Below, in pieces: positions 5,688 through 46,743 of a stretch of 64,000 nucleotides of DNA (within the stretch, counting starts at the first letter, position 1; the number at the start of each line of letters is the position of its first letter). A program made the position numbers and the translations under genes. Origin of the DNA: Ascidia mentula. Taxonomy: Eukaryota > Chordata > Ascidiacea > Phlebobranchia > Ascidiidae. Below the pieces are notes generated by a model. That model saw nothing but the letters and a program-made list of their open reading frames with translations, did not search any database and was not told the origin of the DNA. The stretch spans positions 7,814,501 to 7,878,500 of the forward strand of contig OX387200.1 of NCBI GenBank assembly GCA_947561715.1, written 5' to 3'.

Positions 5688-6507
5688 TCAGAAATCAGAA
5701 TTGTTCAACAGATCATCAATATTGGTCATTTTGTCTCTCAGCTTGTTGTCGTCAATGTCAAACTTGTTCATTTCTTCAAGATCGTCCAGGAAGTCGATGG
5801 CTTCTCGTTCTTCTTCGCCTGTTGCAAGCGTTGCGTGGTTGTGTTAAATCGAGTTAAACAATAAAATTCCTCGTCTCAAAGGATTGTGTCGTATGTTGCG
5901 CACATAAGTGACAGCAAAACCGTTTTGATAAGCAAAGTGGAGCCAAAATATGAATTGTGTAAGCTGCATACAGATGGCCAACTGTTTCGACCTAAAAGGT
6001 CTCATCAGTGCAGCTGGTGTGACTATCAGACGACTTTGCCTACCAAACGGCCAAGCAAGCTGCACTGATGAGACCTTATAATTGGCCATCTGTATGAAGA
6101 TTACACGAAAAACCGTTTTGTTTTCAAACTATTTTTAATCAGACAAAAAGAAACAGTTTTAGGGATGAAGCTCACGTATCGGATGAAAATGCCCTCCACG
6201 AACTTAACATCAAACAATGGTTTTTCAAAGAAAACATTAGTTTTTTAAAGCAGGTCCATCAACCTGCGAATTGATATTTATCTTATTGCTTACCTGCTGC
6301 AGATAGAGCTGTTTTTAATCTGCAGCACATTTGAATCAATGTTAAAACGAGGCAACACAAAACTGAATTACCGCACAGTAAACCTGCAACTTACGCTTTT
6401 TTGGCGCTCTTCAAAGCAAAACCTTTTGTTTTGCTGAGCCACGAAGCTTCAACGTTTACCACGAGCATGAGAGCAAATACCACAACAAATATGGCACACT
6501 TACTCAT
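5688..6507 (-). CDS. Cationic antimicrobial-type peptide precursor, family B (B1)
   Basis: Three minus-strand exons, 6395-6507, 6294-6319 and 5688-5818, together 270 nt (89 aa). Exon 1 gives the signal peptide MSKCAIFVVVFALMLVVNVEA followed by SWLSKTKGFALKSAKK; the 26-nt microexon adds ALKTALSAAG, completing a short amphipathic peptide. Exon 3 is the acidic propiece EEEREAIDFLDDLEEMNKFD... ending NNSDF. Donors GTAAGT and GTAAGC, acceptors GCTGCAG and CAACAG. The start is the first ATG after an upstream TGA. Intron 2 (5819-6293) contains a 181-bp hammerhead-bearing insertion in sense orientation, see below. Phases (2, 1) match families A, C and D. Confidence 0.85.
5928..6108 (-). mobile_element. 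Hammerhead-bearing short retroelement in B1 intron 2
   Basis: A 181-bp insertion flanked by a 12-bp target duplication AAAACCGTTTTG (5916-5927 and 6109-6120). The orthologous intron in B3 (about 41930-41965) has one copy of this site and no insert, so it is an empty-site control. The insert has inverted ends (ATACAGATGGCCAA at 5968-5981 and its complement at about 6080-6096), a complete hammerhead on the minus strand and a decayed one on the plus strand (6063-6100, lacks GAAA). Confidence 0.85.
5962..6015 (-). ncRNA. Complete type I hammerhead ribozyme, sense within B1 intron 2
   Basis: Read on the minus strand: stem I strand AGCUGCA (6015-6009), CUGAUGA (6008-6002), stem II GACCU-UUU-AGGUC (6001-5989), GAAA (5988-5985), stem III CAG...CUG (5984-5971), UA before the predicted cleavage site (5970-5969), then UGCAGCU (5968-5962), which pairs perfectly over 7 bp with the first strand. 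All conserved core nucleotides are present. The gene is transcribed in the same direction, so the ribozyme would be in the pre-mRNA. Confidence 0.88.
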
Positions 6508-12400: not shown

Positions 12401-15400
12401 GTTGTAATTGTGATCTTTTTATTCAGTATGTAAAAAGTCTTTGCAGAAATATTTAAATCACAACCAAAGAATTACATTGATCTCTTTAACAATTTCACGT
12501 CCAAATCAATATTTCTTGAGTGAGCTGCAGACACGACCAATGTTTCGACCAATTAAGTTTCATAATGCAGCTTAGAGAGGGTGCTGATGGCCTTACCAGC
12601 CAAATCGCGAAGCAAAGTCTGACTTTGCAGTGGCTGTCATCCATTGGGTCCCAATATAAAGGACTAACCGCCGGTGATATACCTTGGTGGAAGGCACTAT
12701 GGCAGTATTTAAGTTAGCTGCAGACAAGTGCACCAATGCGACCATTTCGCTGTCATTACTGTAGCTGTGTGACTGAATATATAAGTTCTTGTTTTTGGAA
12801 TAATGCAGGTGGACGAGAAGCCTGTCAAGGAGATTATCCGTTTATGGCTTACACGTACCGAATTCCTAATGTGCAAAGTTTTTGGGTTGGAGGATCTCTT
12901 ATTTCCGACGAATGGGTGATCACAGTGGCTCTTGCCTTCAAGTAATTGTATTTCATTTGTTGTATTATAAATTACACAGCAAGATATTTTGTAGCTTGTC
13001 TGTATTCAATGATTTCCTAAACACAATTTCCTGAAAAACATATTCTTTGCGAACCAGCTCAGCTGACGCAGTCACAACGTATGGAGTTGTTTTGGGAGAA
13101 CATAATCGATTGAAGAATTCCGGTACAGAACAATTCTTCACCTTGTCTGAAGTTATACTCCATCCAAGCTTTAGTTCATCAACTTGGAGCTTCAACCTTG
13201 CACTTCTCAGGGTAAGCATAGTTTTGATCGGATTATACTAAAGTTAAAACAGGTGCAATCTGGGACATTGAAACGCTCATTTATCTAATTATGAGAAGAG
13301 AGTTCTATATCATTTTTCTGCATATGTGTTTTTTGGCCCCAAGAAAAGTTTGTTGCCAAAGAATGAACACAACTTGAGAGTTGACTGCTTACATTTTAGC
13401 ACTTGGTTTTCGTCGCAACACTCTTTCATTTCACAACTACAAATAGTTGTGTTGCTTGCGACAGACCATTGACGTTACAATAGAAAAGTGACCGCTTACT
13501 AATGAATGAAATTTGCGTAATTTTGGTTTACGTGAACTGTTTATTTGCCAGCTATCGAGAAAAGCCACGTTCAACCAGTTTGTGATGCCCGTCAATATGG
13601 TGCCAAGTGGAACTGAAACAGACGATGTTGGAGGTCCGTTTGCCGGAACAACTTGCTATGTGGCGGGCTGGGGAATCACAAGTTTGTATTTACAACTTTC
13701 GGAATTCCTGTTTCGGTTCAGCATTGGCGCTTGCAGAGAAACATGTGTATTAATCCTGCTTCTTCGACCTCTCTTCTAAATGCGAAATATTTTTAGTTGA
13801 AATCTTTACTTTACGACTGTTTTTTGATAAATAATTATTAACACCTAATCTTTAAAGTGGTCAGAATCCAGCCCCTGATGCGACACTGTTTTAAAACCAG
13901 CGACAGCAATAAGCGGATAGGAAATGTTTGAAACAAAGTGCTTCTGATTACGGTTTATTTTTGGTATTTGATAAATCGTTTTCGCCTACAAAGGCATCAT
14001 CAGTTTCTGCAAATAAAATGCAATAAAGCACTTGAAGCTGCCTGTACACAAAATAGGCAAGCAAATAAAATAAAACTAAATTGTGAACATTGTGGCCCCT
14101 CCCACTGCATCTACACAACTACGAACTGCACTGCTGTGCAAGGCTTACTAACACCGGAGGCAGAAAGATAAACGAGTGCGAATGACGTGAGCACGTAAAA
14201 TAGTACCCGCAAAATGAATTCACGACTTCATTGAACAACATTAAAAACAATGGTAAAAGATGAACTCCATCCACAAAAACACAACATCAAGCAAAACTAC
14301 CAGCAATTGCTAACGAGTTCGGGGGAGAATCATTGCTTAAATGTTTATTGAGGCTTTCGTGCGGTTCAGCCATTTTGCTTCGCACACTTCCAGCCTTTCG
14401 GCTATTGGCTGCTCTACAAATACCACCAAAAGGAGAGTCGTTGCAGTCCGTTTGAAGCGCAAGCTGTCGGAAATTTGTTAAACTGTTACCCAAGGAGGGT
14501 GGTCGATTGTAAACGACTTGGTTCTAACTCCGGTGTTAGAGAGCCTTGCACAACAGTGCAGTTCGCAGTTGTGTAGATGCAGTGACAGGGGCCACAGTGT
14601 TCACCATTTAGTTTTATTTTATTTGCTTGCCTACTTTGTGTACAGGCAGCTTCGAGTGTTTCATTGCATGTTATTTGCAGAAACTGATTTGTAGGCGAAA
14701 TCGATTTTTCAAATTTCAAAAATAAACCGACGGACGGTAATCAGAAACACATTGTTTCCAACATTAGTTATTAACACTACATTTATAAAAATTACTGAAA
14801 ACCTGATTTTGTTGCAGCCAATAATGGACCAGATTCCGACGTATTGCTCCAACATGCCTCTGACATCGTTTCAATCACAACTTGTTCTTCGTTAACTGCA
14901 TCGTGGGGATCATTCCGCGTGTCTGCCGGAAACCCAAAGTTTTGTGGTCAAAGCATGGTTACGGGAGGCCTTTGCACTGTTAGTATTTCTGATGCACAAT
15001 AAAATGTTCAAGGCAAGATGCACCACGACAAAAAAGAAAATATATTTTGTGCCAAAGAAAATAAGCTACACTAACTTGCCGTCAGCAAAATTGCGACTAG
15101 CAAGAAGTTTTACATTTTAAGCAATTCCAAATGAAGCTATTTTATTCAATCCCGAACATTCAATGCAGGGCGACGATGGAGGTCCTCTTGTCTGCCGCCA
15201 TTCCAATCAAGGAAATCAGCTCTTTCTTCATGGGGTTTTTTCCTACAATTTTCAATCCTGTGGTAGCTTAAACGTCTTTAACAAGGTTCGTCCTACTACT
15301 CCCAGTCCCAAGTGTGAGTGAAAACTTAATTTACTAATAGACAATTTCCTCGCACAGGTAGCAGACGTGCGTGTGTGGATTGACGGAGTGATTTCTGCAT

Positions 15401-27675: not shown

Positions 27676-28980
27676 TCAGAAATCAGAATTGTTCAACAGA
27701 TCATCAATATTGGTCATTTTGTCTCTCAGCTTGTTGTCGTCAATATCAAACTTGTTCATTTCTTCAAGGTCGTCCAGGAAGTCGATGGCTTCTCGTTCTT
27801 CTTCGCCTGTTGCAAGTGTTACGTGGTTGTGTTAAATCGAGTTAAACAACAAAATTCCTCGTCTTAAAGAAATGTGTCGTATGTTGCGCACATAAGTGAC
27901 AACAAAACCGTTTTGATAAACAAAGTGGAGCCAATAATATGAATTGTGTAAGCTGCATACAGATGGCCAACTGTTTCGACCTAAAAGGTCTCATCAGTGC
28001 CGCTGGTGTGAGTATCAGACGACTTTGCCGACCAAACGGCCAAGCAAGCTGCACTGATGAGACCTTATAATTGGCCATCTGTATGAAGATTACACGAAAA
28101 ACCGTTTTGTTTTCAAACTGATAAGGTTCACAGGCTTCGCAGCCAAGGCATTGCAGCCAAGCTGGATCAGCCACTTTTCCCGACAGGTCGGAGCGAGATC
28201 TGAAAAATCAAGCTCCCGGTGAGGTTTGAACTCACGACCCTGGACTAACCAGGCATTACTTCTGCGTTGTCTGATTACGGTGGTGGAGATCCTCTACGCA
28301 TGCGAAGGTCGCCTGACAAGTTGTGCGCTTGCGCACCAGTGTACCTTGGCCACAATATACCCCGTGAAGCCACTGAGCTCCTGTAGCTCAGTTGGTAGAG
28401 CGTTGGGCCTGGTTAGTCCAGAGTCGTGAGTTCAAACCTCACCGGGAGCTTGATTTTTTAGATCTCGCTCCGACCTGTCGGGAAAAGTGGCTGATCCAGC
28501 TTGGCTGCAATGCCTTGGCTGCGAAGCCTGTGAACCTTATGATCAGAATATTAGAGTTGTGATCGCCAAATATAAAGGGCCTGCGCAGTGGGGCGATCCC
28601 GCCTTGCTATGCGTAAGCATGGCATTACTTTTGTTTTCAAACTATTTTAAACAGACAAAAAGAAACAGTTTTAGGGATGAAGCTCACGTATCGGATGAAA
28701 ATGCCCTCCACGAACTTAACATTAAACAATGGTTTTTCAAAGAAAACATTTTAAAGCAGGTCTATCAACCTGCGAATTGATATATATCTTATTGCTTACC
28801 CGCTGCAGATAGAGCTGTCTTTAATCCACAGCAAATTTGAATCAATGTTAAAACGAGGCAACACAAAACTTTTTTGGCGCTCTTCAAAGCAAGGCCTTTT
28901 AAGTTGCTGAGCCACGAAGCTTCAACGTTCACCACGAGCATGAAAGCAAATACCACAACATATATGGCACACTTACTCAT
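27676..28980 (-). CDS. Family B peptide precursor with intron 1 turned into coding sequence (B2)
   Basis: A 33-bp deletion removed the intron 1 donor, and the intron 1 acceptor changed from CAG to TGG. The remaining 42 nt of intron stay in frame without a stop, so former exons 1 and 2 form one exon, 28800-28980 (181 nt, phase 1 end), followed by exon 3 at 27676-27806. The joined frame is 312 nt (103 aa). The insert puts 14 residues with four Cys (VLCCLVLTLIQICCG) between SAKK and LKTALSAAG. Start is the ATG at 28980; upstream in-frame TTG is not needed. Intron 2 (27807-28799) carries the hammerhead element and a SINE. It may be a new Cys-containing variant or a gene on the way to loss. Confidence 0.7.
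27916..28097 (-). mobile_element. Hammerhead-bearing short retroelement in B2 intron 2
   Basis: Paralogue of the B1 intron insertion, with the same 12-bp target duplication AAAACCGTTTTG (27904-27915 and 28098-28109), so the insertion happened before X1 and X2 separated. Confidence 0.85.
27951..28004 (-). ncRNA. Type I hammerhead ribozyme, sense within B2 intron 2
   Basis: Core as in the B1 copy: CUGAUGA (27997-27991), stem II, GAAA (27977-27974), stem III CAG/CUG and the UA cleavage dinucleotide. Stem I has one mismatch (plus-strand TGCCGCT instead of TGCAGCT at 27998-28004), so activity may be reduced. Confidence 0.8.
28120..28628 (+). mobile_element. Fold-back tRNA-derived SINE in B2 intron 2
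   Basis: A 509-bp insertion with a 15-bp target duplication TTTTGTTTTCAAACT (28105-28119, 28629-28643); the B1 and B3 introns have the single site. Two arms of 134 bp, 28121-28254 and 28407-28540, are inverted copies with one difference, around a 152-bp spacer. The right copy starts with a full tRNA-like head; the left copy is cut in the anticodon region. The long target duplication fits LINE-driven insertion. Confidence 0.85.
28377..28449 (+). tRNA. tRNA-like head of the SINE (73 nt)
   Basis: Folds as a cloverleaf: acceptor GCTCCTG/CGGGAGC (one G-U pair), D arm GCTC...GAGC, T arm GTGAG-TTCAAAC-CTCAC. The anticodon arm TGGGC-CTGGTTA-GTCCA leaves an extra nucleotide before it and would give anticodon GGT, unusual for a nuclear gene. 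A box (TAGCTCAGTTGGTAG) and B box (GTTCAAACC) are intact. Its place inside an insertion shows that it is SINE-derived, not a resident tRNA gene. Confidence 0.75.
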
Positions 28981-40347: not shown

Positions 40348-41725
40348 TTTAATCTGCTAATGTAACTCTGGTGTATATGTTAGTACTCATATTTATCGTA
40401 TGAAACGCGGGATATATATATTTAGTTTAAGTGTTCTGACGTATATATCTGAGTAAACGTAAAATCAACAGCACGGCGAAACAGGTTCTTAATATTTCCA
40501 TCGACGACAAACTGCTTGATGCATTTCATATTTCGGCTAATAAAGCCTTCCAATCCACGACCAGCTGTCGCACTTTTCCGCAAAGAACAGCTTTTGTGAG
40601 TCACGTGAAGCTGTTGAGTTAGATGGTAGTTACTCAAATAACGTCCCTGTTTCATATTACCACCATACTGCATCATGGTATTTAGTTTTATGCATTTTGT
40701 GAAACAGGAAACCCTTTTCAGCAGTATGGTAAACACGCAGCAATACACTTTTGTACAGTTAACAATTTTCAGTCAGTAAGGCACACAACAATCCAATGTG
40801 GGAAGATTTTGTGATGAAACTTTTCTAAGCAATATTTTGGCAGCTTGTAATATGTGACAACAAAAAATTAATCAAAATGAAAGTATTAAAACACCCTTGT
40901 TAGTAAGCGTATTAGTAGCCTACAAACTCCCGTCAATTTCGACTTTTGTCACAAGAACGATCGTGGATTATATAATGCGCCTTGACAAACGCTAACAGCA
41001 ACACAACAACTTTTGTGATGCCATATACTATATTTGTGGGCACAAAACAAGCTGGTTTGCAATTTCTTACAAATTAACAAAATATTCGTTATCAGAGTTT
41101 TAAATTTGTCCGGAATAATTGTTCGATGATTGGAACAAGGTTTGGAACTACTGCGCATCACCAAGTTTGCATTCACATACTGACCGGAAGCAGAGGAAGA
41201 ACATTTGTTCAACAATTTCCTTTAAAATCATTAAAACAGCTGGGCGGTAAGTTGCCTCATGCATGGGGTAATTCACTTCTCAGTTTGTGTCTAAGGATGG
41301 CGAAACAAATTGTTGAACAAATGTTATTCCGTTGCTTGTTGTCAAAACTCCTCTGCTTTTTTTATGTATTAGTTAGAAAGTTTCCTTTTCATTTCTTTTC
41401 CAAATAACATTCACCTGAATTTTTTTGTTTCTATAAATTTTTATTTTTTTTAATGAAGCACGCTTTGTGATTTTTACTTCAGAAGGTCACTTGTGCATGG
41501 TGTCAACTCTCTGCCGCCACATAACAGTAAAATTCTTTGATCAATGTAACATCGTGTCTGCGAAAAACTACAGCAAATTATTCCAACGTATCAATTTGCA
41601 ACAAAAGGCAGCGCCCAAAAATTACAGCTGCGGCAAATTGTCCCTCCTTGCACGAATAACAGTCTGTGCTGATGAAATGTCTCAAATCATCTGTAACATT
41701 TTTTGTTTATTAAAAATATTCATGC

Positions 41726-42352
41726 TCAGAAATCAGAATTGTTCAACAGATCATCAATATTGGTCATTTTGTCTCTCAGCTTGTTGTCGTCAATGTCAAA
41801 CTTCTTCATTTCTTCAAGGTCGTCCAGGAAGCCGATGGCTTCTCGTTCTTCTTCGCCTGTTGCAAGTTTTACGTGGTTGTGTTAAATCGAGTTAAACAAT
41901 AAAATTTCTCGTGTTAAAGGAATGTGTCGTATTTTGCGAACATAAGTGGCAACAAAAACCGTTTTGTTTTCAAACTATTTTTAAACAGACGAAAAGAAAC
42001 AGTTTAAGAGATAAAGCTCACGTATTGGATGGAAATACCCGCCACCAACTTTAACAAGAAACAATGGTTTTTCTAAGAAAACATTACTTTTTAAAGCAGG
42101 TCTATCAACTTGCGAATTGATATATATCTTATTGCTTACCTGCTGCAGATAGAGCTGTCTTTAATCTACAGCAAATTTGAATCAATGTTAGAACGAGGAA
42201 CAGAAAACTGAATTACCGCACAGTAAACCTGTAACTTACGCTTTTTTAGCGCTCTTCCCAGCAAAACCTTTTAATTTGCTGAACCACGAAGCTTCAACGT
42301 TCACCACGAGCATGAGAGCAAATACCACAACATATATGGCACACTTACTCAT
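41726..42352 (-). CDS. Cationic antimicrobial-type peptide precursor, family B (B3)
   Basis: Exons 42240-42352, 42140-42165, 41726-41856 (270 nt, 89 aa). Mature start SWFSKLKGFAGKSAKK. Intron 2 (41857-42139) lacks both the hammerhead element and the SINE and so shows the ancestral intron. The acidic tail has a Gly for Asp change (EAIGFLDD). Confidence 0.85.
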
Positions 42353-45160
42353 ATTCAATCCACAAAACGTCTTGATTTCAAAACTAAATAAATTTACAAA
42401 GGAACGTTTATGAAACGCAAATGTGCACATCAAAAAGCACAGTTAAATTCCAATTGAAACCAGGAAGTAATTCTAGTATTCGACCGTTGACTGCGATAGG
42501 CAAACTACAGGTTACTTCTTTTCATCTCCTGTAACTATATAGTAATTGACATGTGCTCGTTCCATTGCGCAACCACAGTTAACTGCTGATCGTCTAAGTT
42601 GCATCACCAGTTTTACATAAAGACTTCAACACACACGCGAAGAAGAAATGCAAGACGATACCACAAAGACTGTCAAAATCTATTGTTTAATTGTTTGGCA
42701 GCTTCTCGTGGCACATGTCAATATTTATAACTATAACAATGCCTTTTTGGTTAAGAATTGCCACAGTCTTCCTTAAATTAAGCCAATATGGCTCCATCCA
42801 AAACAAATTGCCCTTATACGATACACAAAATGATAATACAAACCACAACAGCAAATCAGGCTAAGACAGGATCGCCGCACTTCAAAGGACTTTTACTTGC
42901 ACATGTATAAATTCTTGTGATCAAGCAAACGCTGTAATGTTCACAGAATGAACGTTAACGATCCGAAGGTTCAAGAAGTTTAATAAAGTGCCAACATCAA
43001 TTTAAACGTGCTGTAATAGATATACAAAGTTGTCATAAAGCGGCTAAGAATATCGAATGCCTCGGATTGCACTTCTGCACGTGAAAATACGCTCGACAAC
43101 CACTTACAGGCGCGGCATGTTTATCAAAAAACCATCAGTACATTGGACAGTTAGACAATACCTTGCGAGCTTTCGTGTAACTGGCAGCATTTGCTTATAT
43201 ACAAGGAACATCGCTCATGTTTTAAATCATCCGAGAATTGTCCCGATGAACTAACATTTACATAAAATTGTAGATGAATTAGATTTAGTCAGAACCAAAA
43301 AATTGGAATCAGATAATTCTGTTTTGTTTTATTGTTGGCGTAACATGAGATCAAGGCTTTTTTGTTCCATGGTGCTGCATGCAGCACACTTTTCGAACCA
43401 TCAGGGACACATTGATTGCTGTTCCGCACCTCAACAGTTTGTATATGTTCTTACGTACAAGGAAATTTAGCGAATTACCGCCACAAATAACAACGCGGCA
43501 AACAGCAAAGGAAGTAATTGGACCATATGTCGGTGCTCCAACAGGATAAGCACGATCCATAATGCTTGCTCCAACGATGAACATCGCAACGGATGAATTT
43601 GTAACTGTTCGGATGACTTTGTTAATTCGTTTTCTAGCTAATAAATGAGTTCCGTCAAAAAATGATAGAGTAGGTGTCTCATATACGTGATAATAAGTAC
43701 CGTCACAAACGTAAAGCTAAAGTTTAACCCACTTTTAGGCATATTTATGTAACCCCGCCCCCCTAGCGAACACACAATTACAATTAGTTCCAAGACATTT
43801 GATTTGCAGATCTCGGGGTAACTTTGTTGCAAATTAAACGTAGAGCACAAACCTGCATAGTCATTTTAACATTTAATTCTTGGCACCAGCATGAGTAATT
43901 GGGCAGTATTGTGGTTTGACAACGAATAATTGGCAACACGAACTGGTGCAACTAAGCATGGTGTGTGTCCGTTTCACCGCCTTTTTTGTAGACCTGCATG
44001 GCGTAAGTTGACGTATTGCAATGTAAACTTATAATATTTAGGCCTTACTAATTTCTAAAGTTACAAACGTTGATTTGTCATCAACTGCAGGTGACGTGTG
44101 TTTGTTTTTTAGTGGTTTGACTTTTTAAGTACGCATTACATATACTTGCAGAAGTTTGTGCGTTAAAGCAGACTGCTGTTGAAAGCAGTGTAGATTTTCA
44201 GTCAAAACACAACATAATTTTGTCATGCTGTGCTGCATTTTCCTTTGTCAGTTAGTCACATATGGCAACTGTTTTGGTTTGAAAATCCCAACCGCCCTTA
44301 CATACAAATAATTGAGCAATAACAACGTGGTACTCATTTGCATACCACGCGAATTACGCGTTGGAAGAAAATGTTATCCTATGCCGACAGTCTGTGCGCT
44401 GCTTCTTTTTCGTTTGTTAATGCTTAACACGTTTTATGTTGCAAAATACACGATATAAACAACAGCTTTTCCTGGAAATTGCTACGTGATTTGTACTGCG
44501 GTCAGCAGTCGAACATGCACACGAAGTTTGATTTGATGAAAACAAGTCTTTTTGTGGACTAGATCAATATGGAGGGAGTGTGGAACCCTCTTCATAACAG
44601 GGAAGCAGTGATGGTGCATGTTTTTTTTCAATGGCAAATCTCCTCAGCCCAATCAATGGACAATTCAAATATCGGTCACCAAAACTTATATGACCTGCTG
44701 GCTGTTCGATTAGTAATTATTTCCCTCCATTAATAGGCAGCGACAGGAGGACGGAAACTGAACACTTACTTGTTTACATGATATACCCACTATGTTTCCA
44801 ACTTCCGCAATATTCCATGCGCGGGAAATTACACACGTGATACAATTTGCTTATTTTAAAAGGGAAATATACCTCAGATACATTACTTGCCATGTGGCTC
44901 CTCAACTTAATAATATTTTCTGGCTGAAAGGAAAGTATGTGCGAGTGCTTTACCTGTGCTTGTGTTCCTTTCTCGCCACAAGGAAAGTGCACCTTTCCAC
45001 ACGAGTGACAAAAAACTCGATATCCACATAGATTCCATTTCCACGCATTCGCTTCCTATTCACCTCCGCATCCCATTCCCGCAGAATGCAATTGTTTTTA
45101 TTCAGAGAACTGTCGATAAAAGGACGGTTGAGACTCACCTCCCGTCATTTTCGTGACGAC
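42353..45160. other. Spacer between X3 and the C/D peptide region
   Basis: 42353-43790 matches X1 6508-7880. From about 44000 to 45160 the sequence is an inverted copy of 53640-55000, the shared 5' flank of the C genes. No ORF conserved between copies as protein. A TATA-like GATAAAAGG sits at 45115-45123. Confidence 0.5.
45115..45123 (+). promoter_or_regulatory. TATA-like box of C1
   Basis: GATAAAAGG, about 45 bp before the ATG. Conserved in C2 (minus strand, about 53674-53682) but changed to GATAATAGG in C3. Confidence 0.5.
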
Positions 45161-45685: not shown

Positions 45686-46279
45686 AATATTAACATTGAA
45701 ACTGTAAGATCGTATTACCCGGAAGAAACTTGGCTTCGCAAATAAACAAATAATATTGAAAAGTATCAGAAAATAACTTTTGTTGTCAGGATCCCGCGTC
45801 CGTCGTTTTCAAAACCCTTTTGCCACAAAAGCAAACTCGGTGCCACGTTTACCAAAATTCGCCATCAAAACAATTCTTGTTTAATAGAATTTAGCGAGTA
45901 AATGTATTTGATTTATGAAACCTGGGCATATACTAAAATATAAACAGGTGACAATTCAGTAAAATCGCATTATTGAAAAATTAATATATACAAGTTATTT
46001 TGCATCAACAGTACTATATACTTAATCAGAAAAACGGCAATCACGTCTTGCCTCTATATAACTTATCCACATCAAAAACGCTTTAGGCCACATCGTGGAC
46101 TGTGCTAAATAAAACTTGTCGTCACTCACTGGCGTGATAAGTTTTACGCTTGCAGGTACGTGTCAATCGTAAAGTCGCATCAATATCATAAATTGTTTAT
46201 TCAAGAGGTTCATGCGTTTAAAATCAACAATTTGTACTTGCTAGTTTCGCTGGATTAGTGGTCGACAAACCAAGGATTC
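45686..46279. other. C1 3' flank
   Basis: Inverted copy of 52500-53110 beside C2. No gene seen; ends at the left target duplication of the hammerhead element. Confidence 0.5.
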
Positions 46280-46280
46280 A

Positions 46281-46332
46281 GACAGGGTGTGCACTCGCAC
46301 TGTTTCGACCTGTAAGGTCTCATCAGTGCAGC
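46281..46332 (-). ncRNA. Hammerhead ribozyme at left edge of the element
   Basis: Minus strand: CAGCUGCA, CUGAUGA (46326-46320), stem II GACCU-UAC-AGGUC, GAAA (46306-46303), CAG...CUG stem III and UC (46281-46282). The sequence after UC is host target DNA, so the element ends at the predicted cleavage position and the stem I partner is lost. Confidence 0.8.
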
Positions 46333-46641
46333 TGTTGAGTGGCACTGTGCTAGCTTTCACACTAGCAGGCACACTAGTCTCCACTTTGTGGTACCTTTCG
46401 GTCAACGTCGATCTGCAGGGTATCCTATACTAGGTACCGAACAACAGAGACGACGAACCACTGTGGAGCGCACTATATGGCCAAACGGAACTGCTTGGTA
46501 ACCGATAGTGCAAAAGGCAAAAACACCAATGTAATATATGTGCAAAAAAAGCCATATTATTGCAAAGCTGCAGACAGGGTGTGTACACGCACTGTTTCGA
46601 CCTGTAAGGTCTCGTAAACTGATGAGACCTTACAGGTAAAC

Positions 46642-46702
46642 AGCTGCACTGATGAGATCTTACAGGTCGAAACAGTGCGTGTACATACCCTGTCTGCAGC
46701 TT
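46642..46702 (+). ncRNA. Complete type I hammerhead ribozyme in the palindrome
   Basis: Plus strand: AGCTGCA, CTGATGA (46649-46655), stem II GATCT-TAC-AGGTC, GAAA (46669-46672), CAG (46673-46675) pairing with CTG (46690-46692), TC at the cleavage site (46693-46694), then TGCAGCT (46695-46701), which pairs perfectly with the first strand. A partner on the minus strand (46572-46616) has lost CUGAUGA. Confidence 0.85.
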
Positions 46703-46743
46703 TGCAATAATATGGCTTTTTTTGCACATATAACCAAGGATTC

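Follow-up and report, generated by a model that had tools for sequence, protein, structure and literature searches.

Does a complete hammerhead ribozyme in the intron of a peptide gene act on the transcript that carries it, and how did it come to be there? The question is raised by a gene, here called B1, in a 64,000-nucleotide stretch of the Ascidia mentula genome (the window), where the original prediction placed a ribozyme that could cut the pre-mRNA. In our reading B1 has 3 exons on the minus strand, of 113 nt, 26 nt, and 136 nt (the last to just beyond the stop), and joining them across GT..AG introns yields an open product of 89 residues; its start is signal-like, its end is acidic, and it has a basic amphipathic stretch. 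Judging from this composition, our guess is that B1 encodes an antimicrobial-type precursor. The features of the window that bear on the question, including those of the paralogues B2 and B3, are the following.

5819..6293, minus strand: intron 2 of B1, host to the insertion; 475 nt with GT..AG ends, consistent with the joined exons
5916..5927, no strand: left target-site duplication AAAACCGTTTTG, 12 bp, with one copy at the empty site of B3
5928..6108, minus strand: the 181-bp retrozyme insertion as a whole, made of two arms head-to-head, from flank and unit alignment
5928..6058, minus strand: long arm, a direct copy in gene sense ending 41 nt beyond the hammerhead cut, from alignment to the 285-bp unit
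5962..6015, minus strand: type I hammerhead with predicted cleavage at 5969/5968 (GUA), from pattern and helix reading
6059..6108, plus strand: short arm, an inverted copy ending 14 nt beyond its own cut position, from alignment to the 285-bp unit
6109..6120, no strand: right target-site duplication AAAACCGTTTTG, from flank comparison with B3
27916..28097, minus strand: same insertion in paralogue B2, 97% identical, with stem I mismatch AGCGGCA, from alignment
41955..41966, no strand: empty target site in paralogue B3, where the B1 flanks overlap by exactly 12 bp
46271..46732, no strand: retrozyme copies of family B with a GUC site, their inverted arms 79 and 66 bp long, from pattern and arm reading

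The ribozyme motif itself is where it had been predicted to be. Core pattern and helix reading place a complete type I hammerhead at 5962-6015 on the minus strand, from which B1 is also read, so that it lies within intron 2 in the transcribed orientation. Read base by base, stem I pairs AGCTGCA (6009-6015) with TGCAGCT (5962-5968) over 7 bp, the CTGATGA core strand lies at 6002-6008, stem II (GACCT/AGGTC, 5 bp) has a loop of 3 nt, the GAAA core strand lies at 5985-5988, and stem III consists of CAG/CTG (3 bp) and the A15.1-U16.1 pair. These are the helix lengths originally given, and the UA at 5970-5969 reproduces the proposed cut, between 5969 and 5968 (GUA). The cleavage nucleotide deviates from that of the family unit described below by C17->A, giving GUA instead of GUC; the triplets of 131 sampled hammerhead rows, in which some copies are counted twice, include 116 GUC and 8 GUA.

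The covariance-model search that had been suggested as a check was run, and the B1 motif fails the Rfam threshold, an outcome named beforehand as refuting, but other members of its family fail as well. No Rfam hammerhead family reaches its gathering score in the window; the best score is 24.6 bits with RF00008 (gathering 48.5), and Hammerhead_1 (RF00163) stays below its gathering cut-off. The best hammerhead scores of three other members, L011 (29.8 bits), L093 (28.3), and L070 (21.6), are all below gathering too, and the cleavage triplet of L011 and L093 reads GUC. Since these members also fail, the Rfam score has no power to separate good from bad copies here. Across the host genome RF00163 gave 0 matches among the 73 of 27,659 candidates that were scored; control genomes were likewise without signal, so this result carries little weight. 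Elsewhere in the window, a hammerhead-like string at 13946-14003 on the minus strand has a stem II and no visible stem I, and is probably a chance occurrence.

Comparison with the paralogues shows how the motif arrived. The left flank of the B1 element aligns to B3 at 41440-41966 and the right flank to 41955-42550, and the two overlap in the 12-mer AAAACCGTTTTG. Because this 12-mer is single in B3 and double around the B1 element, B3 retains the empty site and 5928-6108 is an insert, which agrees with the earlier remark that B3 lacks the element. The insert is made of two opposite arms of one unit that meet head-to-head at 6058/6059. The short arm has a net 9-nt deletion in which the GGTCGAAAC part is gone and the GAAA side of its hammerhead is removed; with that part lost, the short arm is no ribozyme. 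A third copy, 99% identical, lies upstream of the window in L002, and since the insert occurs in similar flanks at three places (L001, L002, and L003), it spread among them by duplication. The view that the hammerhead belongs to the peptide gene is not supported, since it is part of this mobile-element insertion. We consider it probable that a high-copy ascidian non-LTR retrozyme inserted itself, 5'-truncated and head-to-head (as a foldback), into an intron of the B1 ancestor and so gave rise to the B1 element.

B2 carries a second foldback insertion beside its retrozyme, at 28120-28628 (509 bp), with a 15-bp duplication TTTTGTTTTCAAACT and a site that is empty in B1 and B3. Its 134-bp arms are 99% complementary, and a tRNA-Thr lies at 28376-28451. 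Elsewhere the family of this foldback is arrayed in tandem with a 369-bp period, and some of these arrays have head-to-head partners. Neither Rfam nor the hammerhead-core pattern finds a ribozyme in the foldback. It may be related to retrozymes but based on a tRNA, and tRNA processing is perhaps what cuts it out.

The family to which the B1 insert belongs was characterized in the genome that holds the window (195.8 Mb, 79 contigs), searched with a core pattern allowing up to 2 mismatches and with the reversed sequence as control. The mitochondrial code marks the host as an ascidian: 451 bases of its COX1 stay open when AGA/AGG are translated as glycine, and they do so at positions where glycine is conserved. 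There are 3,827 hammerhead cores (1,932 forward and 1,895 reverse) against 0 in the reversed control, so the motif is more than chance, and with thousands of copies in the family little is left of the novelty that had been attached to its peptide-gene context. Our sample comprised 95 loci, of which 8 were chosen for their likeness to B1 and 87 (30 + 57) for their core, the latter all on contig C1 and being the core places listed among the 3,827. Loci were thus chosen by a near-intact core or by B1 similarity, and copies without a core lie outside the sample. Two families emerged, A with a 285-bp unit and B with a unit of about 291 bp, and both form tandem arrays: seven hammerheads in L039 for family A and, for family B, at least 8 copies on '-' followed by at least 5 on '+' at a spacing of ~291 bp on C70.

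These properties fit metazoan-type non-LTR retrozymes. The type I hammerhead is present by pattern and fold, with Rfam gathering scores not reached; the tandem periods of the families (285 and about 291 bp) fall within 150-450 bp; and low GC (47.4% for the 285-bp unit) is accompanied by target-site duplications (TSDs) of more than 4 bp. In B1, by contrast with the arrays, the copy is truncated and two-armed and forms no tandem. In our reading of L001:1512-1566 and of the family, helix III loops are self-complementary in both families despite their differing sequences (GGCC in A and GUAC in B). Such loops could serve dimer action, as in newts.

To see how copies are built, the 95 loci were grouped by similar flanks into 75 insertions, and orientation was counted on 74 of them, with the L038/L039 group left out. 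Runs of '-' (30), '-+' (28), and '+' (15) account for all but one insertion ('-+-'), and the junctions between opposite copies are head-to-head, with 3' ends outward, in 29 cases and tail-to-tail in 1. An overlap of 1-4 nt is found at 18 of the 29 head-to-head junctions. Six of these 29 come from loci found by B1 similarity, a choice biased to such a shape, and 23 from 68 core-picked insertions. Of the 95 loci, 43 lie between duplications of 10 bp or more, compared with 1.0% of 2,818 shuffled flank pairs, and 48 lie between duplications of 9 bp or more, compared with 1.9% of the same pairs; the remaining 47 loci have none of that length. In the 40 of 75 insertions with at least 9 bp, lengths run from 9 to 15 bp with a peak at 12-13 (25/40), and these TSDs are 75.7% AT against 60.5% in the window.

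Where the arms stop is regular: there are two 3'-end classes about 30 nt apart, one per arm. For the end analysis of the 75 insertions, L039 stood for its group and a duplication of at least 9 bp fixed the borders. In 21 of 21 insertions with the cut position in both arms, the stretch beyond the cut measures 10-17 nt on one arm and 33-48 nt on the other, by a method that detects only ends beyond the cut and with short and long classes named after the distances seen. The long side varies between left and right, and 16 of the 21 insertions belong to the core-picked set. Were each arm equally likely to be short or long, independently of the other, such an outcome in all 21 would by our arithmetic have a probability of about 5 in 10 million. 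A second method, in which the last 70 nt of each end were aligned (n=40), gave 23 long/short pairs, 1 long/+3, 9 short/none, 6 long/none, and 1 none/none, with no short/short or long/long pair among the 40 insertions. L063, of family B, has ends at about +26 and +3, which are not exactly within the two ranges. Five loci beyond the sample agree with the rule as judged from match coordinates, with short ends at +16 to +23 and long ends at +44 to +50.

C71:2649700, C52:10536036, C52:2763815, C69:6510272, and C71:10702579: five agreeing loci, from match coordinates

Two arrays, C71:9048461 and C72:13915106, appeared long on both sides and so seemed to contradict the rule, but 3 of the 4 ends fetched from them continue into further units. 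The reading does not include the complex array at C70:6587299-6588221, in which a '-' match comes after a '+' match. The nearest listed family A end is +5 nt past the cut and none is at the cut; the 140 listed end distances count ends twice, owing to a doubled query unit, and were used for the nearest end only. This suggests that the family A template is no linear RNA ending at the cut.

The foldback shape also attracts matches to unrelated models. Those to RF02625 (33.1 bits, gathering 65.3) and RF03605 (53.1 bits, gathering 100) rest on the foldback hairpin and were rejected as artefacts. The family-B foldback at L093:1523-1646 scores 53.1 bits (E 5.7e-9) with the miRNA model RF03605, below its gathering score of 100, so head-to-head retrozymes could pass mistakenly for miRNA precursors.

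Which enzyme would produce such insertions? Neither the 181-bp element nor the 285-bp unit is long enough to hold an open reading frame for a reverse transcriptase with a GIY-YIG domain. Matches to the GIY-YIG domain of Penelope-like elements (PLEs) occur at at least 121 places in the same genome, with 150 of 382 candidates scored; at least 16 lie in open frames of 766-892 codons, and they are often paired as '-' then '+'. In one PLE array the copies run - - + + +, and both sides repeat with a period of 2,870 bp. In all four head-to-head PLE insertions read at both ends (from 2 families), the duplication is 11-13 bp, and by our count a tail of about 34-41 bp is present on one arm only, the left in three and the right in one. 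For the PLE array on C67 the duplication, read by eye, is AGAATCAATAAT, 11-12 bp with an ambiguous border; an automatic repeat call there was set aside as a palindrome inside the element. PLE ends in L100, L101, and L103 read CTGAAGA .. GGCGAAACGT or similar, and we take these to be hammerhead-like cores of the minimal type that PLEs are described as carrying. The PLEs of the host genome follow the same insertion plan as the retrozymes.

Published work on PLEs is in accord with this plan. In the available text of PMC3846280, PLEs have a head-to-head arm, an optional tail on one inverted pLTR, and TSDs of 8-10 bp, and in that of PMC11167929 both strands are cut by a purified PLE and extended, with reverse transcription beginning at two internal sites that bound the tail and with unprocessed RNA as the main template. 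The hallmarks of PLE-type insertion (head-to-head arms, a one-arm tail, an internal start, and a staggered TSD) are all seen in the retrozymes. A search for a driving PLE by sequence in common with the retrozyme unit gave none among the eight PLE fragments tested (best BLAST E 1.2). We regard the pattern as evidence from the genome that animal retrozymes are probably moved by machinery of the Penelope type, a reading drawn from the structure of the copies.

Most simply, PLE machinery would insert the retrozyme RNA on both strands, with each start site used once. Retrozyme RNA, circular or uncut and multimeric, would be taken by a dimer of the PLE-type GIY-YIG/reverse-transcriptase enzyme, which would make a staggered cut, mostly of 12-13 bp. 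Both strands would then prime reverse transcription, the inner start (+10-17) serving one of them and the outer start (+33-48) the other, and we infer that each enzyme of the dimer takes a different start site on the same RNA. The two cDNAs would run through the ribozyme, sometimes more than once round the unit, and be joined head-to-head, often at the 1-4 nt overlap. We lean slightly toward a broader model in which animal retrozymes are parasites of PLEs: one circular RNA would be copied by the dimer from both cut strands at starts ~30 nt apart, tandem arrays would spread in one step, and the mirror arm would silence many of the ribozymes.

Movement by a LINE, with head-to-head copies arising via twin priming, is an improbable alternative. 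Twin priming also yields inverted 5' parts with microhomology. Against this, both arms start within about 30 nt of each other and copy the same stretch, an unsystematic look at the ends inspected saw no poly(A), and the PLEs of this genome display the same asymmetry as the retrozymes.

The mirror arm of the B1 element bears directly on whether the ribozyme can act. The 181-nt element transcript is predicted to fold to -81.7 kcal/mol, 9.8 standard deviations below shuffles, in a structure that pairs stem I, CUGAUGA, and half of stem II with the opposite arm. That antisense arm lies upstream of the ribozyme and is transcribed earlier. In terms of ensemble energy, imposing the hammerhead fold costs 33.3 kcal/mol for the element and 26.9 for a 461-nt part of the intron, compared with only 1.0 for the isolated motif; these energies ignore proteins, kinetics, and tertiary contacts. 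On this modelling the hammerhead appears competent by itself but is very likely silent where it sits, and self-cleavage of the B1 pre-mRNA, which the original prediction considered possible, is unlikely with the catalytic core predicted to be buried. The intronic hammerhead would thus probably be held mostly inactive in B1, as a passenger and not a regulator.

A functional ribozyme that cuts the B1 pre-mRNA co-transcriptionally, and so tunes splicing or frees a small RNA, seems to us very improbable. Its core is complete and in sense, the hammerhead fold of the isolated motif comes to within 1 kcal/mol of its ensemble, and the element is present at three places. However, the upstream arm that worsens the fold is the one transcribed first, the cleavage nucleotide carries the C17->A change, stem I is mismatched in B2, and B3 does without the element. 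Since the copies share the hammerhead by duplication, its retention is no evidence of selection. The idea that the foldbacks are MITE-like terminal-inverted-repeat DNA transposons with an incidental hammerhead is hardly credible, for although some copies have inverted arms at both ends together with duplications, 45 of the 74 insertions have a single orientation, other copies are long direct arrays, duplication length varies from 9 to 15, and the two ends are unlike each other with no fixed terminal sequence.

The original observation was therefore right, its gene-level interpretation is not well supported, and the insertion rule was unexpected. What is new here is the manner in which the family inserts, head-to-head with one short and one long end and with 9-15-bp duplications. 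This bears on the choice of reverse transcriptase for animal retrozymes, for which a PLE role is so far only a proposal in the available literature (PMC7229834). The rule of one short and one long end is a sequence signature that can be searched for in any genome with retrozymes, and biochemically it predicts two start sites on one RNA. The B1 case also illustrates that a perfect-looking intronic ribozyme need not be active.

Intronic hammerheads are known from amniotes, where HH9 and HH10 are conserved, isolated intronic motifs. The B1 element resembles them as a type I hammerhead in an intron and in sense, and differs in being a repeat copy; neither HH9 nor HH10 is among the Rfam entries listed. 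A short helix III with a self-complementary loop is shared with the newt and salamander satellite hammerheads covered in the available text of PMC7229834, with 3-4 bp in the ascidian families against 1-2 there. Among ascidians, 9 type I hammerhead loci are reported for the Didemnum genome in the available text of PMC8704543. At the level of its listings, a literature search showed no report of ascidian retrozymes or of the short/long end rule; a single listed paper, PMC11620745, contains both 'retrozyme' and 'tunicate'.

The closest relatives are the metazoan non-LTR retrozymes described by Cervera and de la Pena (2020, PMC7229834). As far as its available text goes, the resemblance extends to the type I hammerhead, a unit size in the range of 170-400 bp, an arrangement in tandem arrays, a GC content under 50%, TSDs of more than 4 bp, the lack of room for a long ORF, and the presence of PLEs in the same genome. 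The ascidian host, the head-to-head foldbacks, and the short/long end rule set our families apart, and the word 'inverted' has 0 occurrences in the main text of that paper. It also describes mussel retrozyme copies in which the nucleotides conserved for tertiary contacts between loop 1 and loop 2 are mostly missing, and calls PLEs 'a strong candidate' for moving animal retrozymes; a 2024 review (PMC11722881), in its available text, names LINEs or PLEs as the movers. Unlike PLEs, the retrozymes have no reverse transcriptase or endonuclease, carry a full and not a minimal hammerhead, and share no sequence with the eight fragments tested. Their mode of insertion is nevertheless that of PLEs as these appear in the available texts of PMC3846280 and PMC11167929: a head-to-head inverted arm, a tail on one arm, tandem copies, an internal start of reverse transcription past the hammerhead, and an AT-rich target.
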